Source: Phormidium tenue FACHB-1052
GTDB taxonomy: Bacteria > Cyanobacteriota > Cyanobacteriia > Phormidesmidales > Phormidesmidaceae
Direction of reading: 5' to 3'
Assembly: GCF_014696675.1 (NCBI RefSeq)
Contig: NZ_JACJQN010000013.1
Coordinates: 1-64,000, forward strand
Length of the DNA stretch: 64,000 bases
Within the stretch, counting starts at the first letter, position 1; each line of letters opens with the position of its first letter. Position numbers and translations under genes: made by a program. This document shows positions 2,499 through 52,215 of this stretch, piece by piece. The notes below the pieces were generated by a model. The model had not been told where the DNA came from. It saw only the letters and a list, made by a program, of their open reading frames with translations, and ran no database searches.

Positions 2499-5500
<3,002 letters not shown>

Positions 5501-6014
5501 GTGCCCAGCTCCTTACTCGCATTCAATATCAGTTAGGTTCTTCTCAACTAAGAAATTGATGGGTAGGGAGACTACCCTGCGAATACTGACGACCTGCCCT
5601 CGAACGTAATGAAGAAATGGTTGCAGGCCATCCCTATCAAGCACCCGTTAACTCGAAGCAATCGCGCTCTGCTAACAGGTGCAAGGCATTGGCAAAAACA
5701 ATAAAACTCCTTTGCGTTAGCCAGCATGTTGGGGGTGCTCCAACTAAGCGCCCCTGGGGCTTACAAACTCATGCAGGCATTTAAGTCATACTCACTACGA
5801 GTTTGCATGATGCCAGCTTAATCAACTCCTTTGCGCTTGGGAGCTAAACATAAAAGTGTTTTGCAACATGTAATATCTCTACAAAATAAAATCTGTCCCC
5901 AGTCAGGTGCAGGGTTAAAGCCCACGGCAGCAGGCGGCGACGCCAACCATAGCCGAATCCTACAATCAGCCGATAAGCTAGAGGGTGCAATCGATACGCC
6001 CCCTTTGGTTTGCT
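5501..6014. other. Intergenic region upstream of the peroxiredoxin-katG operon and the FAD oxidoreductase
   Basis: No convincing gene. The stretch must hold the divergent promoters of the peroxiredoxin-katG operon (minus strand) and the oxidoreductase (plus strand). Small inverted repeats are present, for example GCCCC/GGGGC around 5750-5760 and CAAACTC/GAGTTTG around 5764-5807. I cannot assign any to a known regulator. Confidence 0.5.
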
Positions 6015-8114
6015 ATGAAACGCTTTTTTCGCGCCCTAACGGCTCCCCTGTTAGCCTCCACGCTGGTTGCCGGTTCGATACCGCTCCCCATTGGCAACGC
6101 CCAGGCCCAGGAGTCGGTATCGCCCCGCATTGCCCAGGTGCCCCAAACTCCCGACCAGGTCGTCGAGTGCGAACTGCTGATTGTTGGCGGTGGCCTAGCC
6201 GGTACCGCCACCGCCTACGAAAGCTTGATGATGGGCCACACGGTCTGCATGACTGAGCTGACCGACTGGGTCGGAGGGCAGATCTCATCCCAGGGCACCA
6301 CGGCGCTGGATGAGTCGCGGGAGCAGCGGCGGCAGCTGTTTTATTCGCGGGGGTATAAGGAGTTGCGCGATCGCGTCGAGCGCAAATACGGCAAACTCAA
6401 CCCCGGCGGCTGCTGGGTGAGCGCCTCCTGCTTTTTGCCCGCCGATGCCAACGCCATTCTGATGGAAATGCTGGCCGAGGCAGAGCGCGAGGGCGGCGGC
6501 GAACTCAAGTGGTTCCCCAATACGGTGGTCAAAGACCTGAGCTTGAGCACCGATGGCACCCAGATTGAGGAGGTGGTCGCGATTCGCCACAGCCCCGCAC
6601 CGGGTACAGAACCCCTCAACACCGACTTTCTCTCCGAAATTATCGAAGACGCCTACACCTACGACGACTCGGCCCGCTTGGCGAAGGAAATTATTCAGTT
6701 TGTGCCCGCAGGCATTGAGCTGGAACGGATGGAAAATGCTCCCGACAGCAAGGTGGACTGGTTTGTGGTTGAGGCCACCGAGACCGGCGAGCTAATTGCC
6801 CTGGCCGATGTGCCCTACGAGCTGGGGCTAGACCCAAGATCGCCCCTCAACCCTTCGTCGCCCGTGCAAGAGCGCGACCCCTACTGCACCCAGGGGTTTA
6901 CCTACACCTTTGCCATGGAGCGCACTGCCGAGCCGCAAACCTACGATATTCCTGAGTTTTATAGCACCTACGCGCCCTACTACAGCTGGGAGCGCGAGCG
7001 CGACTCGCTAAAAACGGCCCAAGACCACTTCGACTTTGTCTTCACCTACCGCCGCCTATGGAATGCCTCGCCTCAAACGGAGGCGAAAATCTCTGGGGTG
7101 CCTCGCCCAGGCGTGGGCGACATCTCAATGCAGAACTGGACCTGGGGCAACGACTATCGCCCTGGCACCGAGCAGGACAACCTGATTTTGACCGAAGACC
7201 AGCTGGCGGCCAGCGGTCAGCTAGAGCCGGGCGGCTGGCTGGGCGGCCTGCGCACCGACACCCTGCGCAAGGGCGAAGAGAATGCGATCGGCTTTTTCTA
7301 CTGGCTGACCACCGGCACCACCGACTCGCAAATCGACGAATCCTGGAAAGAGCCTGAGCCCTATAACCGCTATTTGCAGGGGTTAGATTCGCCGATGAAT
7401 ACGGCCCACGGCCTGTCGAAGTATCCCTACATTCGCGAGGCGCGGCGGATTATTGGTCGGCCTGCTTATGGCTACGAAAATGGGTTCATGATCAGCGAAG
7501 TGGACTTTTCGTGGAATGACTTTACCGCTGAGTTCTATCAGGAGAACCTAGACGAGGGCACCTATACATCTTTGCGGCGCTACCTGGCGGGTCTGGGAAC
7601 GGTAGATACCTTTGCGCCCGATGCCGACCCCAACACGTTCCCGATTCGGGCGCGATCGCGCCTCTATCCTGACACCGTTGGCATCGCCCAGTATGCGATC
7701 GACTTTCACCCCTGCATGGCTGAGTACCCAGCGGAGGCCCCCGGCAATATTGAGCGGCCCGGCGTGCGTCAGGCCCACGGCCAGGCCTACCCCGCCCAAA
7801 TTCCCCTGCGGGCGATGATTCCTCAGCGGGTAGACAACATGCTGGTGGCCAGTAAGAGCATTGCCGCCAGCTACAGTGCCGCCGCCGCCTACCGGGTGCA
7901 TTCCTTTGAATGGTCGGTGGGGGCGGCAGCGGCGCACTCCATCGACTTCTCGCTGCGCAACGGGGTGCTGCCCTACGAGCTAGTGGATGACCTGCCCAGC
8001 TATGAGCCCCTGCTCGACCAGCTGCGGACCGAGTTGCAGAGTAGCGGCAACCCGGTGCAGTTCCCGAACACTTCGATCTTTAACGAAGACTGGGGCAACT
8101 GGCGGCCCTGGTAG
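6015..8114 (+). CDS. Exported FAD-dependent oxidoreductase
   Basis: A 699-residue flavoprotein-like enzyme of the FAD_oxidored family. The ATG at 6015 gives a classic signal peptide (MKRFFRALTAPLLASTLVAG, then IPLPIGNAQAQ), suggesting export to the periplasm or thylakoid lumen. A GTG at 5985 would add ten residues and spoil that peptide. The dinucleotide-binding motif LLIVGGGLAGTATA follows at about residues 55-68, then WVGGQISSQG, where the cofactor is usually contacted. The C-terminal part has the conserved IPLRAMIPQRVDNMLVASKS and AAYRVHSFEWSVG blocks found near the flavin in this family. The substrate is not known. It stands alone and is followed by a strong terminator. Confidence 0.88.
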   Translation: MKRFFRALTAPLLASTLVAGSIPLPIGNAQAQESVSPRIAQVPQTPDQVVECELLIVGGGLAGTATAYESLMMGHTVCMTELTDWVGGQISSQGTTALDESREQRRQLFYSRGYKELRDRVERKYGKLNPGGCWVSASCFLPADANAILMEMLAEAEREGGGELKWFPNTVVKDLSLSTDGTQIEEVVAIRHSPAPGTEPLNTDFLSEIIEDAYTYDDSARLAKEIIQFVPAGIELERMENAPDSKVDWFVVEATETGELIALADVPYELGLDPRSPLNPSSPVQERDPYCTQGFTYTFAMERTAEPQTYDIPEFYSTYAPYYSWERERDSLKTAQDHFDFVFTYRRLWNASPQTEAKISGVPRPGVGDISMQNWTWGNDYRPGTEQDNLILTEDQLAASGQLEPGGWLGGLRTDTLRKGEENAIGFFYWLTTGTTDSQIDESWKEPEPYNRYLQGLDSPMNTAHGLSKYPYIREARRIIGRPAYGYENGFMISEVDFSWNDFTAEFYQENLDEGTYTSLRRYLAGLGTVDTFAPDADPNTFPIRARSRLYPDTVGIAQYAIDFHPCMAEYPAEAPGNIERPGVRQAHGQAYPAQIPLRAMIPQRVDNMLVASKSIAASYSAAAAYRVHSFEWSVGAAAAHSIDFSLRNGVLPYELVDDLPSYEPLLDQLRTELQSSGNPVQFPNTSIFNEDWGNWRPW

Positions 8115-11392: not shown

Positions 11393-12031
11393 ATGAAGAT
11401 TGATCACGACGTTCCAAGACATACCTACGTCAATGTAATGGAACTGCTCGTCTCTGAAGAGGTGGAAAAGCACCTCAAAACCATGCAGCCCCGCATGCTG
11501 AAGTATCTCAAGCGGGTAGAGGTAGAGACCTATGCTCTCAACCGTTTGCCTTCGCTCTACGCTTCTAGCGAAAAAGGGCGGCAGCTTCAGTATGAAAAAG
11601 CCAAGCGAGAACTCTACAATCACATTAAAAGCGCAGTGCGCCAGGCCTTTGCCGCTGTGCAGGTCGATCCAATTCGGGCATCTGAGCCGTTGCACAACCA
11701 GCAAGACGACGCGGCCAGCGTTGCCCTCACCGCCCTGCGCGACCTGCTTAAGCAGCCCGACCTCAATTGGGATGGGGCGATCAATCGCTTGCGGTCTCTG
11801 CTTGGCCGTCGCGGCGACCAACCACCCACAGCCCCGGCTCAAGAGCCGTCGCACCGCACCCGCTACCGCAATGATGCTCCTGACGTGACCGCCGCTGCTG
11901 ACCCTGACCATAGCCACTATTGGCGACCCGGCACCTATGGCTCTGAGGTTTCGTGGAAAAAAACCCACAATCCTGGCTCAGCCCAGACAGGCTCTGGCTT
12001 TGACTGGAACGACAACCGCTACTCTAAGTAG
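11393..12031 (+). CDS. ComFB-family protein, probable c-di-GMP receptor
   Basis: A 212-residue protein. Residues about 8-95 match the late competence ComFB domain: NVMELLVSEEVEKHLKTMQP, then VEVETYALNRLPSLYASSEKG, then AVRQAFAAVQVDP. Cyanobacterial members of this family bind cyclic di-GMP and affect cell size, motility or competence. The rest is a predicted disordered tail rich in Pro, Asp, His and Arg, ending DWNDNRYSK, with no further domain recognised. The ATG at 11393 is preferred over the GTG at 11381 because the domain begins close after it. It stands alone on the plus strand. The window also encodes three active-looking diguanylate cyclases that could supply its ligand; that link is inference. 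Confidence 0.75.
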   Translation: MKIDHDVPRHTYVNVMELLVSEEVEKHLKTMQPRMLKYLKRVEVETYALNRLPSLYASSEKGRQLQYEKAKRELYNHIKSAVRQAFAAVQVDPIRASEPLHNQQDDAASVALTALRDLLKQPDLNWDGAINRLRSLLGRRGDQPPTAPAQEPSHRTRYRNDAPDVTAAADPDHSHYWRPGTYGSEVSWKKTHNPGSAQTGSGFDWNDNRYSK

Positions 12032-34725: not shown

Positions 34726-36276
34726 TTAAGAGCGCTCAGCCCCAGAGAGCATGTGGTCAACGCTGATGGCGCGATCGCGACCGTGGTTTTTGGCCCAGTA
34801 CAGCGCCTTATCGGCCAGATTGACCAGGGTGTGGGGGTTTTCACCGTGGTGGGGAAAGCTTGCCACACCCAGAGAAATCGTGATCGGTGGCAGCGGCTGG
34901 CCGTTGAAGGAATTGGTGACATACTTCACGGCTCGGCGGATTTTCTCGGCTCGTTTTAGCGCGACTTCTGGGGTAGTGTCGAGCAGCACCATACAAAATT
35001 CTTCACCGCCGTAGCGACAGACAATATCCTGAGCGCGCACGTGGCCTCGCAGCAGCATGCCGATATTCTTGAGCACGGCATCGCCCGCCGGGTGGCCGTA
35101 GGTGTCGTTAATGGCTTTGAAATGGTCGATGTCGATCAGAATAATGCTGATATTCTGCTGTTTGCTAGCCTGACACAGGCTGTTGAGCACGGCCTCGGCA
35201 TGGCGGCGGTTGAGCAACCCCGTCAACGGATCCTTTAGCGCCTGATCTTGCAGATCTTCGAGCAGCAGCAGCCGCTGCATCACAAACAAAATTTGCTCCG
35301 ACAGCTTTTTCAGCAGCGCCGTCTGCATCGAAGTAAAGGGGTTTGACTCAGATTGCACCAGCTGCACAATGCAGGTGGTGTCATTGATCATGCCGAGCAC
35401 AATGCACTTCGTCATCTGTTGAGGGCAATGGGTGACCTGGCACTGCTGGCATTCCTGGCCAACGCTAGACGGCGGGGCCAAGAGCTGCTCCTGGGAATAG
35501 CAACATTGCTGCTCTACCACGGCTAAAGGCTTCGCATCGCCCCACTCAGTGAGTATTGTAAAGCTGTCAGGCGGGGTCGAAAACAGGACTAACCGTCCCG
35601 ACTGATGCGGGAAAAAATAGGGTAAATAGGTGCCCAATAGCTGGCCCAACTGTTTGTAAGACAGGCACGACTGAAGCTGAGCCACCAGATCGGCCAAGCG
35701 GGGATGGCCGTGCTGGATGCGATCGTAGACAGCGCCACCGGGGTTGAGCGCCACCACCCGCGATAAAAAATCGACGCCGTCGGGGGACGCACTCACGGCC
35801 AGTTGGGGCGTCACCTTGGACAGCGTTGCTGGGGTAGCAGGCTGGGCTAACGTTAGGCACAAAAGCAGCTGCTGGGTGAGGTACTGAAGGGTTTTGACCT
35901 GCACCTCGCTTAGCTGATCTACGGCCAGCCCAGGCACATAAATCGTAAAGTGATACCGATAGTCGGCGCTGTGCAGACGGCCCACCAGCACCGGCACTGG
36001 GCTGACCTCAGGGTGTAGGCCCGATTGGCTGTGGGTGCTGAGGGAAAGCTGATCGCATTTGAGGCCGGTTGCGTCTACTGGCTGGCTCGCCAGCACCTCA
36101 CGCAGAGCGGCAGCAGGCAGTTGACCGTAATTCATCACCCCACCGTGGCGCCAGTCGTCGCCCACCTGAACCGTTAGCGCTAGCTGGGGAGCAGACAGGG
36201 TCAATGAGGCGAGCCGCAAGAAATTGCACAGGGCTGGGTAGGCATCTCCTAACGACGTAGGTTGAACTTGGTGCAT
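34726..36276 (-). CDS. Diguanylate cyclase with GAF-like sensor and cysteine cluster
   Basis: A 516-residue protein that would make cyclic di-GMP. The C-terminal GGDEF domain (about 345-510) has an intact active site GGEEF (423-427) and the product-inhibition motif RAQD five residues before it. The N-terminal 340 residues are sensory; the part from about 190 to 335 looks like a GAF domain. It contains six cysteines in a short stretch (C258, C259, C276, C279, C284, C291), which suggests metal, Fe-S or redox sensing. No membrane span is clear. The ATG at 36276 (MHQVQ) is preferred; the frame could begin ten codons earlier. It converges on vipp1. Confidence 0.85.
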   Translation of the reverse strand: MHQVQPTSLGDAYPALCNFLRLASLTLSAPQLALTVQVGDDWRHGGVMNYGQLPAAALREVLASQPVDATGLKCDQLSLSTHSQSGLHPEVSPVPVLVGRLHSADYRYHFTIYVPGLAVDQLSEVQVKTLQYLTQQLLLCLTLAQPATPATLSKVTPQLAVSASPDGVDFLSRVVALNPGGAVYDRIQHGHPRLADLVAQLQSCLSYKQLGQLLGTYLPYFFPHQSGRLVLFSTPPDSFTILTEWGDAKPLAVVEQQCCYSQEQLLAPPSSVGQECQQCQVTHCPQQMTKCIVLGMINDTTCIVQLVQSESNPFTSMQTALLKKLSEQILFVMQRLLLLEDLQDQALKDPLTGLLNRRHAEAVLNSLCQASKQQNISIILIDIDHFKAINDTYGHPAGDAVLKNIGMLLRGHVRAQDIVCRYGGEEFCMVLLDTTPEVALKRAEKIRRAVKYVTNSFNGQPLPPITISLGVASFPHHGENPHTLVNLADKALYWAKNHGRDRAISVDHMLSGAERS

Positions 36277-43471: not shown

Positions 43472-44500
43472 ATGTCTTCTCGCTCCGCCGCCCTGCGCTA
43501 CTACATCTTCACTCGGCTGCTGCTGGCTCCGCTGATGATTTTGACCATCACGACGGTGGTGTTTTTGCTGCTGCGGGCGACGCCGGGCGACCCGGTCGAT
43601 GCACTGCTCGGAGCGCGGGCTCCGGCGGCGGCAAAGGATGCGCTTAGGTCGCAGCTTGGCTTAGATCAGCCCTTGTTCATTCAATACTTGAGCTACCTGG
43701 GGGATCTGCTGCGGCTGGATTTGGGATCTTCTCTGGCAACCCAGGGTCAGACGGTGTGGCAAATTATTCGGGCACACTTTCCGGCCACGGTTGAGCTGAC
43801 GGTGTGCGGCATGATTGTCGCCACGGTGGTGGGCATCGGCGTTGGTGCCCTAGCGGCCTCGCGCCCCAATTCGCTGCTGGATGCGGGGGGACGGCTGTTT
43901 GGCATCGTTACCTACGCCATTCCGATGTACTGGTTTGGCATGATTTTGCAGCTTATTTTTGCGGTGCAGCTGCGCTGGTTCCCCATTGGCACCCGCTACC
44001 CGCTGCGGGCCGCGCCCCCGGCAGGGCCAACCGGGCTGTACCTGCTCGATAGCCTGCTGACCCTCGATTTTGGCGCATTCTTTACCACGCTCTACTACTT
44101 GGCCCTGCCTAGCCTCACCCTAGGGATTTTAATCAGCGGCGTGTTTGAGCGCATGGTGCGGGTCAATCTCAAACAGACCCTGGCGGCAGACTACGTGGAG
44201 GCGGCGCGGGCGCGGGGCATTCCAGAGCGGCGCATTGTGCTGGTACACGCGCTGAAGAATGCGATGATTCCGGTGATTACGATTTTGGGGCTGACCTTTG
44301 CCTCCATGCTGGGGGGCGCGGTGCTCACGGAGGTGACGTTTTCGTGGCCGGGGCTAGCCAACCGCCTTTACGAGGCGATCTCCCAGCGCGACTACCCAGT
44401 GGTGCAGGGGCTAATGGTGTTTTTCGCCATGATTGTGGCGGTGATCAGCATTGCGATCGATATTTTGAATGCCTATATTGACCCCCGCATTCGTTACTGA
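43472..44500 (+). CDS. Peptide-type ABC transporter permease (DppB family)
   Basis: A 342-residue inner-membrane permease with six predicted spans. RLLLAPLMILTITTVVFLLLRATPGDP is the typical DppB/OppB N-terminus, and DYVEAARARGIPERRIVLVHALKNAMIPVITILG is the EAA loop that docks the ATPase. The protein ends NAYIDPRIRY, as in the family. It sits about 200 bases after the binding-protein gene with repeats between, so the two may or may not be cotranscribed. A DppC partner must be encoded elsewhere. Confidence 0.95.
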   Translation: MSSRSAALRYYIFTRLLLAPLMILTITTVVFLLLRATPGDPVDALLGARAPAAAKDALRSQLGLDQPLFIQYLSYLGDLLRLDLGSSLATQGQTVWQIIRAHFPATVELTVCGMIVATVVGIGVGALAASRPNSLLDAGGRLFGIVTYAIPMYWFGMILQLIFAVQLRWFPIGTRYPLRAAPPAGPTGLYLLDSLLTLDFGAFFTTLYYLALPSLTLGILISGVFERMVRVNLKQTLAADYVEAARARGIPERRIVLVHALKNAMIPVITILGLTFASMLGGAVLTEVTFSWPGLANRLYEAISQRDYPVVQGLMVFFAMIVAVISIAIDILNAYIDPRIRY

Positions 44501-44906: not shown

Positions 44907-45731
44907 ATGCCAGTGGATGTTTTAAGCCGAAACAACGTCAAGGTTATGGGCCAAGGGCAGCGACCTTTGGTGATGGCCCACGGCTTTGGCTGCGATCAAA
45001 AGATGTGGCGGTTTGTGGCCCCTGCCTTTGCCGCCGACTATCGGCTGGTTTTGTTTGACTATGTGGGATTTGGCCAGTCAGACTTGGCCACCTACGATCC
45101 GCTGCGGTACAGCCACCTTCAGGGCTATGCCCAGGATGTTTTGGAGATCTGTGCGGCGTTGGAGCTAGAACAGGCGATCTTTGTGGGTCACTCGGTGAGC
45201 AGCATGATTGGTCTGCTGGCGGCGATCGCCGCCCCCGAGCGCTTTGAGCGGCTGGTGATGATTGGCCCATCGCCCTGCTATATCAACGAGGATGCCTACG
45301 TCGGCGGTTTTGAGCGCCAGGATATTGACCAACTGCTCGACATCATGGAGAAAAACTACATTGGCTGGGCGCACTTTTTAGCCCCAGTGGTAATGCAGAA
45401 CGCCGATCGACCCCAGCTCACCCAAGAGCTAGAGGAGAGTTTTTGCTCGACCGACCCCGCCATTGCCACGCGGTTTGCCAGAGCTACCTTCTACGGCGAT
45501 AACCGCGACGATTTGGCCAGAGCACCGGTACCCTCCCTGATTTTGCAGTGCAAAGACGATGCGATCGCCCCCACCGAGGTAGGGCGATACCTGCATCAGC
45601 ACTTGCCCCACAGCACCCTGGCCCTGATGGAGGCCACGGGCCACTGCCCCCACATGAGCCATCCCGACGAAACCGTTCAGCGGATAAAAACCTATTTGGA
45701 GGCGGCCAGTCTGGGTTCGGCCTATGGTTAA
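44907..45731 (+). CDS. rsbQ: RsbQ-like alpha/beta hydrolase (KAI2/D14 superfamily)
   Basis: A 274-residue alpha/beta hydrolase closely resembling Bacillus RsbQ along its whole length. Shared blocks include LSRNNVKVMGQG, GFGCDQKMW, FDYVGFGQSDL, GYAQDVLEICAALEL, FVGHSVSSMIG, PSPCYINED, MEKNYIGWA, PSLILQCKDDAIAP and EATGHCPHMSHPDET. The catalytic triad is S96, an aspartate at 217/218 and H246, almost the same numbering as RsbQ (S96, D219, H247). In Bacillus, RsbQ supplies or processes a small hydrophobic ligand for the PAS domain of phosphatase RsbP. Here the gene overlaps a PAS-GAF-GGDEF gene by eight bases, so the output appears to be cyclic di-GMP instead. It is cytosolic, with no signal peptide. 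Confidence 0.93.
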   Translation: MPVDVLSRNNVKVMGQGQRPLVMAHGFGCDQKMWRFVAPAFAADYRLVLFDYVGFGQSDLATYDPLRYSHLQGYAQDVLEICAALELEQAIFVGHSVSSMIGLLAAIAAPERFERLVMIGPSPCYINEDAYVGGFERQDIDQLLDIMEKNYIGWAHFLAPVVMQNADRPQLTQELEESFCSTDPAIATRFARATFYGDNRDDLARAPVPSLILQCKDDAIAPTEVGRYLHQHLPHSTLALMEATGHCPHMSHPDETVQRIKTYLEAASLGSAYG

Positions 45732-47316
45732 CCGGAGTTCTACCCCAAGGTCTGCGCCCCAGGGCACCGGCCCCCTGCTCGACCAGGCTCCCTGCGGACT
45801 TTTGTCGGTGCGCGACGACGGCGTGATTGAGTACGCCAATGCCACACTACTGACGCTGCTGGGCTGGGAGGCGCTACAGGGTCAAAACATTGTCGCTATT
45901 TTGCCCTTGGCCAGCCGCATTTTTTATCAAACCCACGTGTTTCCCATGCTGCGGGTGCAGGGGGCGGTGAGCGAAATTTACTTTTCCCTGCGATCGCGAT
46001 CGGGGCAAGACATTCCCATTTTGGCCAACGGGGTGCGGCGGCAGCGCCAGGGAGACGCCATCAACGACTGTGTGGTGATTCCCATTCGCCAGCGCATGCA
46101 GTACGAAGACGAGATTTTGCGGGCCAAAAAGCAGGCCGAAGCCGCGATTAGCGCCCAAAAGCAGGCCGAGGCCACCCTCAAACATCAGTACGAGCGGGCC
46201 GTAGCCCTGGGACAAATTACCCAGCACATTCGAGAATCCCTTGAACTAACGCAAATTTTTGCCGTCGCGGCCCAGGAAGTTCGCCAGTGCTTAGCGGCGG
46301 ATCGGGTGGGCATCTATCGCTTCGCTCCCGATGGGGCGGCGGGCGGTAGTTTTGTGTCGGAGGCGGTGGCCCCAGGGGTGGATGCGGTCATGGTGACCCA
46401 GGTGCCGCACCAGGGGTTTGGCGATCACTACCGGGGCATTCGCCACAACGCTGGCACCCTGGCCATTAGAGATCTTCACGAAATGAGGCTGTTGGACGAG
46501 CACAGCCAGCTCTTTAGCCAGTTTCAGGTGCAGGCCAGCCTGGTGGTGCCCCTGCAAAAGGGAACCGATCTTTGGGGGCTAATTGTGATTCACCAATGCT
46601 CCGGGCCGCGCTACTGGCAGGGGGTAGAGGTCGAACTGGTAGAAGACATTGCGGCGCAGCTAGCGATCGCCATTCACCAGGCCGATTTGGTTAAACAGCT
46701 ACAGAGCGAACTGCAAGAGCGCCAGCTCGCCGAGGTGCGCCTGACCCAGGCCAACGCTGAACTGCAACGGGCCACAGGGCTGCTAGAGCAGATGGCCCAC
46801 ATCGATCCGCTGACTCAAATTGCCAATCGTCGCCGCTTTAGCGATCGCCTAGAGCAAGAGTGGGCGCGTCTGAGGCGCGATCGCCTACCCCTCTCCCTGC
46901 TGCTGTTTGATGTCGACTATTTCAAGTGCTACAACGATACCTACGGCCATCAGTCGGGCGATGATTGCCTCTACGCCCTTGCCCAGGCCGCTCAAAAAGT
47001 ATTGGGTCGCCCCACCGATCTGCTGGCGCGCTACGGCGGCGAAGAGTTTGTGATCATTTTGCCCAACACCATTCGGCAAGGGGCGATCGCAGTGGCACGC
47101 CACATCCATCAGGCGATCGCGGCCTTAGCCATTGCTCACCAGGCCTCAGCAGTGGGTTCCCAGATTACAATTAGTTTAGGCATCAGTACCCTCATCCCCT
47201 CTCAGAAACTAACCTCTACGGTGCTCGTTCAACAGGCAGACCAGGCCCTCTACCAAGCCAAGCGGCAGGGACGCAATCGTTCGGTGGTGTTTGACCGGAC
47301 GATGTCTCGCCCCTAA
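45724..47316 (+). CDS. PAS-GAF-GGDEF diguanylate cyclase coupled to the RsbQ-like hydrolase
   Basis: A 530-residue signalling protein. The PAS domain (about 18-105) reads DQAPCGLLSVRDDGVIEYAN, then ASRIFYQTHVFPML and EIYFSLRSRSGQDIPILAN, a subtype like that of RsbP. A coiled coil of QAEA repeats (about 130-155) leads to a GAF domain (about 160-325) with DRVGIYRFAPDG and LVVPLQKGTDLWGLIVIHQC. It resembles phytochrome-type GAF domains but lacks the bilin-attachment cysteine. The GGDEF domain (about 355-525) has an intact GGEEF at about 438 and the I-site RPTD. The gene overlaps the hydrolase gene by eight bases, so translation is coupled. It likely makes c-di-GMP in response to the hydrolase ligand. 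Confidence 0.92.
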   Translation: MVNRSSTPRSAPQGTGPLLDQAPCGLLSVRDDGVIEYANATLLTLLGWEALQGQNIVAILPLASRIFYQTHVFPMLRVQGAVSEIYFSLRSRSGQDIPILANGVRRQRQGDAINDCVVIPIRQRMQYEDEILRAKKQAEAAISAQKQAEATLKHQYERAVALGQITQHIRESLELTQIFAVAAQEVRQCLAADRVGIYRFAPDGAAGGSFVSEAVAPGVDAVMVTQVPHQGFGDHYRGIRHNAGTLAIRDLHEMRLLDEHSQLFSQFQVQASLVVPLQKGTDLWGLIVIHQCSGPRYWQGVEVELVEDIAAQLAIAIHQADLVKQLQSELQERQLAEVRLTQANAELQRATGLLEQMAHIDPLTQIANRRRFSDRLEQEWARLRRDRLPLSLLLFDVDYFKCYNDTYGHQSGDDCLYALAQAAQKVLGRPTDLLARYGGEEFVIILPNTIRQGAIAVARHIHQAIAALAIAHQASAVGSQITISLGISTLIPSQKLTSTVLVQQADQALYQAKRQGRNRSVVFDRTMSRP

Positions 47317-47535: not shown

Positions 47536-50220
47536 ATGCAGCCAACCGATCCGGATCAGTTTACCGCCAAAGCCTGGGATGCCATCGTTGAGGCCCAGGA
47601 CGTGGCTCGCCGCTGCAAACATCAATATATGGAGGTCGAGCACGTGCTGATCGCGCTGCTCGATCAAGAAGAAGACGGGCTGGCCCACAAGATCCTCGAC
47701 AAGGCCAACCTCGACAGCGACCAAATTCTCGACGATCTAGAGAAATTTGCCCAGCGCCAGGCCCGCGTGCGCCCCGGTGTTGACAGCAACCTCTACCTGG
47801 GCCAGAGCCTCGATCGCATGCTCGATCAGGCCGAGGCGGCGCGCCAAACCCTCAAAGACAAATTCATCTCGGTCGAGCACCTGCTGCTGGGTTTTCAGGA
47901 GGATGAGCGCATTGGCCGTCGGCTACTGCGGGGCTTTAATGTGGAAGGCCCCGAACTGATGGCGGCAGTACAGGCGGTGCGCGGCAGTCAAAAAGTCACC
48001 GACCAAAATCCTGAGTCGCAGTACGACGCCCTAGAGAAATTTGGCATCGACCTCACCCAGCTCGCCCGCGACGGCAAGCTCGACCCCGTAATTGGTCGTG
48101 ACGACGAGATCCGCCGCGTGATTCAGGTGCTGTCGCGGCGCACGAAAAACAATCCCGTGGTGATTGGCGAACCGGGGGTGGGCAAGACGGCGATCGCCGA
48201 AGCTCTGGCCCAGCGCATCATCAACGGCGAGGTGCCCGAATCGCTTAAGGGGCGCACGCTGATTTCCCTCGACATCGGCGGGCTAATTGCCGGAGCCAAG
48301 TTTCGCGGCGAGTTTGAAGAACGGCTGCGGCTGGTGCTCAAGGAAGTTACCGACTCCGCCGGGCAGGTGGTGCTGTTTATTGATGAGCTGCACACGGTGG
48401 TCGGAGCCGGAGCGGGCCAGGGCACCATGGATGCCAGCAACCTGCTCAAGCCGATGCTGGCGCGGGGCGAACTGCGCTGCATAGGGGCCACCACCCTCGA
48501 CGAATACCGCAAGCACATCGAAAAAGACGCCGCCCTAGAGCGTCGCTTTCAGCAGGTGTACATCGGTCAGCCCAGCGCCGAAGACACTATCTCCATTTTG
48601 CGGGGGCTGAAAAAGCGCTACGAGTCGTACCACGGCGTCGATATTGCTGACAGCGCCCTGGTGGCGGCGGCAGTGCTCTCTGACCGCTACATTGCCGATC
48701 GCTTTCTGCCCGACAAAGCCATCGACCTGGTTGACGAAGCCGCCGCCAAGCTCAAGATGGAGATTACCTCCAAACCCGAGGAGCTGGAGGGCATCGAGCG
48801 CCGCCTCATGCAGATCGAGATGGAAAAGCTCTCCCTGGAGGCCGAAAACGGCTCCATGACCAAGGCCTCGCGCCAGCGTCTCAGCCGCATCGAGCAAGAG
48901 ATTACCGAACTCCAGGCCAAGCAGCAGTCCTTTAGCGGCCAGTGGCAGAGCGAAAAGCAGGCCCTCGACGCCATTCATGCCCTCAAAGACGAAGAAGACC
49001 AAATTCGCCTACAGATTGAGCAGGCCGAACGGGCCTATGACCTCAACAAGGCCGCCAAACTCAAGTACGACAGTCTGGAGAAGATTCAGCGCGATCGCGA
49101 AACCCTAGAGGCCCAGCTGGTCGAAGTGCAGGCCCAGGGCAATACCCTGTTGCGCGAACAGGTCACCGAGGCCGACATCGCCGAAATCGTCGCCAAATGG
49201 ACGGGCATCCCCGTCAATCGACTGATGGAGTCAGAGCGGCAAAAGCTGCTCCAGCTCGAAGGCCATCTGCACGAGCGGGTGATTGGTCAAGACGAAGCGG
49301 TGGAGGCCGTGGCCGCCGCCATTCGCCGCGCCCGCGCCGGCATGAACGACCAGGGCCGTCCCTTGGGTTCCTTCCTGTTTATGGGGCCGACCGGGGTGGG
49401 TAAGACCGAGCTGGCCCGCGCCCTGGCAGAGTTTCTCTTCGACACCGAAGACGCGCTGATTCGCATCGACATGTCAGAGTACATGGAGAAAAACGCCGTG
49501 TCGCGGCTGGTGGGGGCACCCCCTGGCTACGTCGGCTACGAGGACGGCGGTCAGCTCTCCGAGGCGGTGCGTCGCCACCCCTACTCAGTGGTGCTGCTCG
49601 ATGAGGTCGAGAAAGCCCACCCCGACGTGTTCAACATTCTCTTACAGGTGCTCGACGACGGTCGCATCACCGACTCCCAGGGCCACCGGGTCGACTTTCG
49701 CAACACCGTGGTGATCATGACCAGCAACCTGGGCAGCGACCACATTTTAGAGCTGGCGGGCGACGACGATCGCTACGACGAAATGCGCGTTCAGGTGCTC
49801 AAGGCGCTGCAAAAACAGTTTCGCCCCGAGTTCCTCAACCGGGTGGATGATCTGATTCTGTTCCACTCGCTGCGCAAGAGCGAGCTGCGCAAGATTGTGG
49901 CCCTGCAAATTCGCCGGGTGCAGCGCCGATTAGCTGACCAGACCATTGGCCTGGAGATTGCCGATCCGGCGATCGACTTCATCGCCGAGAGCGGCTATGA
50001 CCCAGTGTACGGTGCCCGTCCCCTCAAGCGGGCCATCCAGCGGCTGCTAGAGAACCCGATCGCCACCAAGATTCTAGAGACCACCTTTGCCCAGGGCGCG
50101 ACCATCACCGTGAGTTTGCAGAACGGCAAGCTGGAGTTTGACCACCGCGAACCCGCCGCCCCCGAGGTGCTAGCGGCGACAGAGGATGAAGCCGCCAAAG
50201 TAGAGTCGGTGGTGGGTTAG
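47536..50220 (+). CDS. clpB2: ClpB2-type AAA+ disaggregase
   Basis: The second ClpB of the window, 894 residues with the full set of domains. The N-domain starts [22 protein letters not shown]. Walker A 1 is GEPGVGKTA (about 209), the middle coiled coil lies at about 405-540, Walker A 2 is GPTGVGKTE (about 616), and the C-terminus has [12 protein letters not shown]. It differs from ClpB1 in the N-domain ([17 protein letters not shown]) and in an acidic tail ending [13 protein letters not shown]. Cyanobacteria usually have a stress-induced ClpB1 and a housekeeping ClpB2; the assignment to ClpB2 rests on similarity and is tentative. ACGGAGATT precedes the ATG, and a TATACT box lies about 60 bases upstream. 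Confidence 0.95.
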
Positions 50221-50437: not shown

Positions 50438-51526
50438 TCAGCTGATAGTCAACCCCGGTTGATAGAAACGGTAGGTATTGCGGCCCTGGTTTTTGGCCTG
50501 GTAGAGAGCCTGGTCGGCATAGCGCAGCAGGGTGGTGGGGTCGGGGCCATCCTGCGGAAAAAGGGCGATGCCGACGCTAGTGCCAATGTGTAGCTGATGG
50601 TCATCGATCGCGAAGGTGGGTCGCAGGCTCTCTAAAATGCGATCGCAGGTGCGCCCCACCGAATCTGCATCAGTTAGCCGAGAGAGCACCAAAACAAACT
50701 CATCACCGCCCCAGCGCACTAGCAGGTCTTCGCTGCGCAGGCAGTGGGCTAGGCGCTGAGCCACCTGGTGCAGCATTTGGTCGCCGACCTCGTGGCCCAG
50801 GCTGTCGTTGATATCTTTGAATTTGTCGAGGTCTAAAAAGGCCACTGCTACCTGAGTTTGTTGGCGCTCGGCCTGGGCCAGCACCTTGGGCAGATAGGTG
50901 TCGAGAAAGGCACGGTTGGGCAGCCCGGTGAGCCGGTCGTAGAAGGCTTGGTGGTGAATTTTGGCCTCGGCCTGCTTTTTTTCGGTGATGTCGCGCACCA
51001 GCCAGCGCAGGCGGGCTTCACCGCCCTCACGGCTAGCGGAAACTGTAATGGCAACATCGATGGCCGTGCCCTCTCGGAGCACAATCTGGGTTTCCCAAGT
51101 TTTGATGGGCAGTGGGGTTGTGCCAGTGATCTGGGCCAGCATGGCGTAGAGGGCGCGGCGGTGCTTGATCGGTAGCAACAGCACCATGGGTTTGCCCACC
51201 AGCGACGCCTGGGGCAGACGCAGCAGGGCGGCGATCGCCACATTGCCCGCCTGAATGATGCCCTTGGCGTCGCTCACCAAGTAGCCATCGGGGGCAAGGT
51301 TAAACAGGTCTTGGTAGCGCTGGCGCTCGGTCTCTAGCTGCTGGCGGTAGTCAGCCAGAGCCTGATTTTGCTGAATTAGCTCTTCGTGGGCGGTGCGCAG
51401 CTCTTCGAGCACTAGGCTAAGGTCATCTAGGGCCAGGGCCAGCAGCTCGGGTTTAATGGGCGACGTGCTGGCGTGCTGGTGCAGTAGCAAGGCGCGCTGC
51501 TGTACAGCATCAATGCGCTTAAGCAT
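50438..51526 (-). CDS. PAS-GGDEF diguanylate cyclase
   Basis: A 362-residue protein. An N-terminal helical region (about 1-70, ALDDLSLVLEELRTAHEELI) leads to a PAS domain (about 70-190, FNLAPDGYLVSDAKGIIQAGN, ending LRWLVRDITEKKQAE) and a GGDEF domain (about 200-362). The active site is WGGDEF at about 271 and the inhibition motif RSED is five residues before it, so it should make cyclic di-GMP with feedback control. The ATG at 51526 is chosen because the frame upstream overlaps the preceding gene in an unrelated reading. It starts five bases after the stop of its PAS-only paralogue. Confidence 0.9.
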   Translation of the reverse strand: MLKRIDAVQQRALLLHQHASTSPIKPELLALALDDLSLVLEELRTAHEELIQQNQALADYRQQLETERQRYQDLFNLAPDGYLVSDAKGIIQAGNVAIAALLRLPQASLVGKPMVLLLPIKHRRALYAMLAQITGTTPLPIKTWETQIVLREGTAIDVAITVSASREGGEARLRWLVRDITEKKQAEAKIHHQAFYDRLTGLPNRAFLDTYLPKVLAQAERQQTQVAVAFLDLDKFKDINDSLGHEVGDQMLHQVAQRLAHCLRSEDLLVRWGGDEFVLVLSRLTDADSVGRTCDRILESLRPTFAIDDHQLHIGTSVGIALFPQDGPDPTTLLRYADQALYQAKNQGRNTYRFYQPGLTIS

Positions 51527-51531
51527 AATAT

Positions 51532-52215
51532 TCACTGCGGCCTGCCCTGACGGTAGTCGCTGAGATCTTGAAGCAGTTGGGCGTTGGCCTGCATGAGGTC
51601 TGCGGTGCGGGCCACGACTAGATCTTGAAGATCGGCCTGGGCCGCCTGGAGCTGCTGCTCTATGCGGCGCTGCTGAGAAATATCTCGCAGCGACCAAAGA
51701 ATGGTAGTGGCCCCTGGGCCGCTGTCTTTGAGGAAGTTAGTGGCGATCGCCACCGTAATCGGCTCCCCCTGCCGCGATTTGAGGGTGACTTCCCAGGGCT
51801 TGGCAGGGTTGGGCTGAGCCAGCCGCCGCTGAAACTCTGACCAGTCACCCTGCTCGATCAGCACCATCAGCGGTTTGCCCACCAGCCCGGCCTGGGGCTG
51901 GGCAAACAATATCTCTGCTGCCCGGTTAGCGTGATAAATTTTGCCCGTTGCATCGGTAACTAAATAGCCATCGGGGGCCAGCTCAAACAGGGTGCGATAG
52001 CGCTGGCGCTCAAGGTCAACCTGAACCCGGGTGTCGTTGAGTATCTGGTTTTGCTCATGCAGCTCCGTATCTACGGCCTGTAGCTCTTCAAGCACGAGGT
52101 ATAGGTCTTTAAGGGCCAGCTCTAGCAGAGTGGGGTCAATCGGGTTGGTAGTGGCCTGCTCGCGCAGCCTGAGGGCGCGTTGGTAGACTGCTTCGATTTG
52201 ATGAGAGATACTCAT
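51532..52215 (-). CDS. PAS-domain protein without output domain, paralogue of the next gene
   Basis: A 227-residue protein. Its N-terminus (ALKDLYLVLEELQAVDTELHEQN) and PAS domain (FELAPDGYLVTDATGKIYHAN, ending ILWSLRDISQQRRIEQQ) align with the same parts of the GGDEF protein encoded five bases downstream. A C-terminal coiled coil (LQAAQADLQDLVVARTADLM) replaces the cyclase. It is probably a tandem duplication in which one copy lost or never had the output. It could form mixed coiled-coil dimers with its neighbour and modulate it; that is inference. Confidence 0.87.
   Translation of the reverse strand: MSISHQIEAVYQRALRLREQATTNPIDPTLLELALKDLYLVLEELQAVDTELHEQNQILNDTRVQVDLERQRYRTLFELAPDGYLVTDATGKIYHANRAAEILFAQPQAGLVGKPLMVLIEQGDWSEFQRRLAQPNPAKPWEVTLKSRQGEPITVAIATNFLKDSGPGATTILWSLRDISQQRRIEQQLQAAQADLQDLVVARTADLMQANAQLLQDLSDYRQGRPQ

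Follow-up and report, generated by a model that had tools for sequence, protein, structure and literature searches.

A putative RsbQ-PAS sensor with c-di-GMP synthesis output in Phormidium tenue, carrying a cyanobacteriochrome-type GAF domain that lacks both cysteine motifs

The stretch of DNA analysed here (the window) comprises 64,000 nucleotides of Phormidium tenue FACHB-1052 (assembly GCF_014696675.1, contig NZ_JACJQN010000013.1, positions 1 to 64,000). Its forward strand carries an orthologue of the alpha/beta-hydrolase gene rsbQ and, overlapping with it, the gene of a PAS-GAF-GGDEF protein. The two products probably form a two-protein sensor of the RsbQ/RsbP-PAS type, with the synthesis of cyclic di-GMP (c-di-GMP) as its output and a GAF domain that is most likely blind to light in this organism. 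The core RsbQ-PAS-GGDEF interpretation is supported, but has been known since 2011: RsbQ-PAS modules with a phosphatase, histidine kinase or diguanylate cyclase as output are described by Nadezhdin, Brody and Price (2011; PMC3183031), and the pairing with a diguanylate cyclase is restated in 2025 (PMC12143880). The apparently unpublished part is the cyanobacteriochrome GAF domain inside the module, not the pairing itself. Within the accessible text of the open-licence literature, a cyanobacteriochrome GAF domain in an RsbQ-PAS module, its loss of cysteines, a class III cyclase output and RsbQ-PAS fusions were not found.

The gene pair and its conservation

The hydrolase gene and its junction with the cyclase gene comprise the following features:
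44907..45731, +, rsbQ orthologue, alpha/beta-hydrolase of 274 amino acids (best match 1wom, E 1e-110)
45192-45194, +, codon of catalytic S96 (triad alignment)
45558-45560, +, codon of catalytic D218 (triad alignment)
45642-45644, +, codon of catalytic H246 (triad alignment)
45724..45731, +, 8-base overlap of the rsbQ end with the cyclase gene start (open reading frame coordinates)

Among solved structures, B. subtilis RsbQ (1wom) was the top match of the window hydrolase (372.8 bits, residues 4-266), with 157 of 263 residues (60%) identical. The initial annotation had described a match to Bacillus RsbQ along the length of the hydrolase, with the catalytic triad in nearly the same positions, and an 8-base overlap of the two genes. 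Both descriptions were confirmed, the triad being S96/D218/H246 and the reading frames 44907-45731 and 45724-47316. Its reference to the plant receptors KAI2 and D14 holds as far as the common family is concerned; the hydrolase is closer to RsbQ, with plant-receptor matches reaching at most 205.6 bits (KAI2) and 195.7 bits (DAD2/D14). Membership of the KAI2/D14 group was rejected on a comparison of these bit scores. The window genome (5.8 Mb) contains a single RsbQ orthologue and 17 further hydrolase matches, the best of which is 27% identical. The nearest named relatives at the RsbQ locus belong to the cyanobacteria Leptolyngbya and Nodosilinea.

Conservation of the pairing had been named beforehand as one of the points on which the proposal could be refuted. 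When the best 80 of 226 RsbQ relatives in a named genome collection were examined, the Ser-Asp-His triad was unchanged in all 80, and 77 of the 80 loci had an RsbP-type PAS domain starting no more than 250 bases beyond the end of the RsbQ match (50 bases in the window). Of the other three, L011 and L056 are contig ends and were left out, and L008 has no such domain in the 5 kb downstream. In searches with 1.5 kb flanks, this PAS domain was found neither at the seven loci examined for other alpha/beta-hydrolases in the window genome (L082-L088) nor at seven loci of more distant RsbQ-like cyanobacterial proteins (L098-L104, 39-46% identical).

RsbQ-PAS pairs span several phyla and differ in their outputs. 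Classified with models built on sequences of this same analysis, and thus in a partly circular manner, the 17 cyanobacterial loci comprise nine PAS-GAF-GGDEF, four PAS-GAF-kinase, one cut-short PAS-GAF and one PAS-kinase arrangement as well as two without PAS. The 63 other loci include 47 with a kinase, five with a PPM phosphatase, four with GGDEF, four with no assigned output, two RsbQ-PAS fusions and one without PAS. Of the 15 cyanobacterial loci with PAS, 14 have a GAF domain matching the cyanobacteriochrome model, versus 0 of 62 others. The natural fusions, in Modicisalibacter (L061) and Halomonas (L076), join RsbQ and a following PAS domain (identified by Pfam for L061) in a single frame, an arrangement that lends indirect support to a contact between RsbQ and PAS.

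These Halomonadaceae fusions (L061:4980-6152 and L076:4980-6179) have no output domain, and the gene just upstream on the same strand, by eye a sigma-54-type AAA+ regulator with a GAFSGA motif, could be their partner. At two Paenibacillus loci (L059:5836-6339 and L074:5827-6300), PAS and a short helix follow RsbQ as a protein of their own with no Pfam output domain, and Sporosarcina gallistercoris (L040) has two RsbQ-PAS pairs less than 5 kb apart (1585-2751 and 5010-6174).

In a wider survey with overlapping genome samples, RsbQ was detected at E <=1e-60 in 16 of 386 genomes of the phylum and at 1e-100 in 10 of 63 genomes of the window order and 21 of 388 of another order. Merging of identical loci gave 40 distinct loci above 300 bits, 39 of them informative; L158, L160 and L161 (below 300 bits) were left out. 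PAS lay downstream in 35 of the 39, combined with GGDEF in 21 (two with two GAF matches), with GAF-kinase in nine and with kinase in four, while one was cut short. Of the four others, genomes G607 and G664 encode the PAS protein immediately ahead of RsbQ, with a class III adenylate/guanylate cyclase domain at its end (Pfam E 1.2e-19 and 3.5e-20). This output goes beyond the three that were named in 2011. Proteins of this kind were located as follows:
L228:572-2484, PAS-class III cyclase protein upstream of RsbQ (Pfam; reversed gene order)
L229:622-2597, -, PAS-class III cyclase protein upstream of RsbQ (Pfam; reversed gene order)

The remaining two genomes, G346 and G730 (to which L008 belongs), encode an RsbP-type PAS protein at another place in the genome. 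The window genome contains exactly one RsbP-type PAS domain, and none was found at E 1e-6 in the RsbQ-less genomes G429 and G406 of the same genus. In L155, the 842-base gap between RsbQ and the PAS protein (4842-5682, -) holds what by eye looks like a broken response-regulator gene, and the PAS protein has two GAF domains. A cyanobacterial pair looks degraded in L097 and L158, where the RsbQ match covers only residues 66-265 and the PAS frame 163 amino acids.

The pair is surrounded by the same two genes in the window, in G415, G427 and G428 and at L001, L002, L003 and L005. Their names (ClpB-type and peptide-transporter) were given by eye alone and are presumptive:
43472-44500, permease gene, left flank (name by eye)
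47536-50220, ClpB-type gene, right flank (name by eye)

In the sister genomes G429 and G407, the flanks are present 143 and 405 bases apart and the pair is absent, leaving an empty site. The RsbQ-less genomes G406, G411 and G424 matched on the ClpB side only and are therefore uninformative in this respect. RsbQ and the cyclase are thus a two-gene cassette that is gained or lost as a unit. The ratios of nonsynonymous to synonymous substitution rates (dN/dS) between the window and seven relatives were 0.07-0.15 for RsbQ, 0.06-0.26 for PAS, 0.09-0.20 for GAF and 0.08-0.15 for GGDEF, so that every part is under purifying selection.

Architecture of the partner protein

The second gene encodes the following elements:
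45724..47316, +, PAS-helix-GAF-helix-GGDEF protein of 530 amino acids, probable diguanylate cyclase (Pfam; AlphaFold2 fold order)
45778..46113, +, RsbP-type PAS domain (150 bits with the RsbQ-linked PAS model; PAS fold in the AlphaFold2 model)
45922..45945, +, F-alpha motif F67-Y-Q-T-H71-V-F-P74 (41-sequence alignment)
46084..46233, +, predicted signalling helix from PAS to GAF, 50 residues, 121-170 (AlphaFold2)
46246..46674, +, cyanobacteriochrome-type GAF domain, residues 175-317 (Pfam; 6oap, E 1.6e-32; trees)
46408..46419, +, HQGF, residues 229-232, at the DXCF site of relatives (alignment)
46498..46503, +, E259-H260 at the canonical Cys-His or Cys-Tyr site of relatives (alignment)
46621..46797, +, predicted helix from GAF to GGDEF, 59 residues, 300-358 (AlphaFold2)
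46795..47280, +, GGDEF domain (Pfam E 4.6e-53)
47008-47019, +, I-site RPTD, residues 429-432 (motif)
47035-47049, +, GGEEF, residues 438-442 (motif)

The RsbP-like PAS domain that the initial annotation had proposed for the partner was recovered: the domain can be aligned with RsbP-type PAS domains of Firmicutes, and a model of RsbQ-linked PAS domains gives it 150 bits. In B. subtilis RsbP numbering, which was taken from the Firmicute relative L060 and not from B. subtilis RsbP itself, it is identical at C10, L13, L48, F55, P62, E72 and P86 and differs by R at Q53, Y at C56 and H at Y59, each being the commonest residue among 41 aligned sequences. F67, H71 and P74 of the window protein occupy positions F55, Y59 and P62 of RsbP, and the Y59 position is H in 26 and Y in 15 of the sequences (41 aligned of 87). 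The DIT motif is absent at the end of the window PAS domain, which terminates DCVVIPIRQRMQYED. The published module is defined, among other things, by a coiled coil that links PAS to the output over 21 residues or more; in the window protein, the predicted 50-residue helix behind PAS leads to the GAF domain.

Pfam (run on 16 proteins in all) placed GAF at residues 175-317 and GGDEF at 358-519, both far above the cut-off. The key positions of GGEEF and RPTD were invariant in 15 aligned sequences, in line with the diguanylate cyclase output named by the initial annotation, and the 530-residue protein is, judged by these motifs, a probable diguanylate cyclase. In the AlphaFold2 model (mean predicted local distance difference test score 81.4), PAS, GAF and GGDEF folds follow one another in this order, with the 50-residue helix between the first two and the 59-residue helix between the last two. 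Foldseek searches with the cyclase model gave composite matches of low TM-score to bacteriophytochrome-GGDEF proteins and DosP, which are informative for the GAF and GGDEF parts only.

The cyanobacteriochrome-type GAF domain

Among solved structures, the window GAF domain matched best (E 1.6e-32) the cyanobacteriochrome GAF of 6oap, whose deposition title is dual sensor histidine kinase, and Foldseek matched it to 6oap, 6ob8 and 3w2z. The DXCF motif and the canonical chromophore cysteine were assigned as defined in PMC11284453. The alignment comprised 22 cyanobacteriochrome-type GAF sequences; L017, L155_145, the split L134 matches, the truncated L021 and six low-scoring sequences of the kinase type (98-162 bits) were kept outside this set. 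Twelve of the 22 fall outside the clade of the window, and the canonical cysteine is present in all of them. Six of these combine it with an exact DXCF motif, five upstream of GGDEF (L014, L029, L137, L139 and the second GAF of L155) and one upstream of a kinase (L031). Four (L013, L039, L141 and L142) have an altered motif with a cysteine at the DXCF place, and two (L006 and L145) lack this cysteine. In the clade of the window, both cysteine motifs are missing in 10 of 10 aligned sequences, with H-x-G-F/L and Glu in their places. Relatives have C-H or C-Y at the canonical site; C-Y also occurs at this site in miRFP670nano, a bilin-binding fluorescent protein. The GAF domain that had been annotated as an extra sensor is thus present, but the word sensor had to be corrected, as the domain is of the cyanobacteriochrome type with both chromophore cysteine motifs missing.

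In a tree with 26 other GAF sequences (24 different) from four genomes plus 6oap, 24 RsbQ-linked GAF sequences lay on one side of a branch with support values of 90/91. When the motif columns were removed and L017 and L155_145 not counted, the RsbQ-linked GAF domains formed one group (91/88). The stem of the window clade was long in two trees (0.77 and 0.75), as expected after a change of function. Together, trees and stem length favour, with moderate support, a loss of the cysteines in the window clade. The idea that the GAF domain was never of the cyanobacteriochrome type was rejected on account of the 6oap match, the trees and the cysteine motifs of the relatives.

With both cysteine motifs gone in its clade, the window GAF domain is most likely light-blind and retained for another role, be it in structure, in dimerisation or in the binding of a different ligand. 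The cyclase probably descends from a sensor of both light and a chemical, with the light input probably dead here, and several cyanobacterial relatives with both cysteine motifs should add a light gate. A further-reaching proposal, which we put forward tentatively and hold somewhat less likely than its negation, is that the RsbQ hydrolase (chemical input) and a two-cysteine cyanobacteriochrome GAF domain (light colour) act in series on a diguanylate cyclase or histidine kinase as a coincidence sensor, of which only the chemical input later survived in the window lineage. It is this light-plus-chemical reading that most merits testing in the relatives; if true, the window lineage and its cysteine-bearing relatives would be a natural before/after pair.

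Proposed mechanism, alternatives and genomic context

In B. subtilis, according to PMC3183031, the active site of RsbQ is required, RsbQ contacts the PAS domain of RsbP, and changing RsbP F55 or Y59 lowered RsbQ binding; an AlphaFold2 complex from 2025 places RsbQ between PAS and linker (PMC12143880). By extension, the intact Ser-Asp-His site of the window RsbQ would capture a hydrophobic small molecule, perhaps of the butenolide type, and RsbQ would dock on PAS and the helix behind it. In its ligand-loaded form it would shift both, and hence the cyclase, the change passing from PAS through the ~50-residue helix, GAF and the ~59-residue helix to GGDEF. There, a GGDEF dimer would make c-di-GMP, with product inhibition acting through the RPTD site. 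The module would have been joined to a cyanobacteriochrome-type GAF domain in cyanobacteria, with both cysteine motifs later disappearing in the window clade. The cue of RsbQ-PAS modules is called mysterious in the 2011 description (PMC3183031), and phototrophs with the module on c-di-GMP, whether the light domain is intact or not, could offer a simple readout for finding it, namely c-di-GMP with light on or off and ligand on or off. They would also tie light signalling to the bacterial relatives of the karrikin and strigolactone receptors of plants.

Several observations weigh against this interpretation. The Pfam match of PAS_8 is weak (23.2 versus a cut-off of 21.8 bits), with no single stretch passing alone, and the predicted template modelling score of the AlphaFold2 model is 0.42, so that it gives the order of the domains and no prediction of their arrangement. 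Four of the 39 informative cyanobacterial RsbQ loci have no downstream PAS, and RsbQ is patchy, being present in 9 of 26 same-genus genomes including that of the window (E 1e-100). As regards the GAF domain, the case for its cyanobacteriochrome-type origin has weak points: with L017 and L155_145 counted as outsiders, the tree built without the motif columns requires two changes, and the group holds together in only 21% of 200 bootstrap trees. The fork that joins the window clade to cysteine-bearing sequences has support values of 87/81 and 87/83, and the approximately unbiased test of the 22-sequence clade does not reject (p 0.471), which is no proof of the clade. Further cyanobacteriochromes outside the sample could break the GAF group, because the outsiders are limited to 26 sequences from four genomes and 6oap. 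Finally, with 36 GGDEF loci in the genome, the window cyclase may contribute little to c-di-GMP.

A metabolic esterase could have come to lie next to an unrelated cyclase by chance in a genome with 18 alpha/beta-hydrolase matches and 36 GGDEF loci. This explanation is very improbable and was rejected: PAS adjoins RsbQ in 77 of 80 loci while the outputs vary, and is found at none of the seven other hydrolase and seven distant RsbQ-like loci, and the two fusions, the co-absence of both proteins and the empty sites likewise speak against chance. Less remote, though still unlikely, is a GAF domain that continues to hold a bilin without the usual cysteines, in which case the cyclase would still be a photoreceptor and RsbQ would supply its second input. 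Its cyanobacteriochrome-type fold and sequence, its purifying selection (dN/dS 0.09-0.20) and the His beside the lost Cys, kept in most sequences of the clade, are consistent with bilin binding, but both cysteine motifs are missing in 10 of 10 clade sequences and the long stem (0.75-0.77) is as expected after a change of function.

The alternative with the best prospects, to which we assign roughly one chance in four, concerns RsbQ itself, which may be an enzyme that makes or delivers the PAS ligand (Model 1) and not the receptor (Model 2). The triad is intact in 80 of 80 relatives, and both models are left open in PMC3183031. The analogous plant receptors would favour perception by the hydrolase. 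A 2024 paper on RsbQ reportedly speaks for such perception in its title, which counts against this alternative.

Plant KAI2/D14 receptors work with an F-box protein (MAX2). They share the alpha/beta-hydrolase family with the window RsbQ, which is, however, far closer to RsbQ proper and has a PAS protein encoded by its partner gene. Among known systems, the RsbQ-RsbP module (PMC3183031) resembles the window pair in the adjacent rsbQ, the N-terminal RsbP-type PAS domain, a helical linker (predicted in the window protein), GGDEF as one of three published outputs, an identical triad and agreement at most class residues, whereas the window protein has a cyanobacteriochrome-type GAF domain between PAS and output. 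In that paper, the 45 published cases are called organo-heterotrophs, while the window host is a cyanobacterium; the main text of the paper mentions neither cyanobacteria nor GAF. SesA of Thermosynechococcus (PMC5871770), likened here by its description, also combines a cyanobacteriochrome-type GAF domain with a following GGDEF domain with RxxD. SesA is activated by blue light, whereas the window protein has neither cysteine motif in its GAF domain and bears, ahead of that domain, an RsbP-type PAS domain with an RsbQ partner. RsbQ, RsbP and hydrolase do not occur in the main text of a 2022 census of c-di-GMP stimuli (PMC8846402).

The window genome contains 36 GGDEF loci (37 entries, of which one is only a piece of the adjacent one), along with 19 EAL domains, a single PilZ protein, two ComFB-type proteins over the cut-off and one below it, and therefore has c-di-GMP machinery on which the cyclase could act. 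Within the window itself, a ComFB-type domain (Pfam PF10719, E 7.3e-18), which we take to be a possible c-di-GMP receptor, is located at 11429-11671 (+). Two more GGDEF domains lie at 50438-51697 (-) and 34771-35238 (-), one of them in a 419-residue protein just past the ClpB-type gene.

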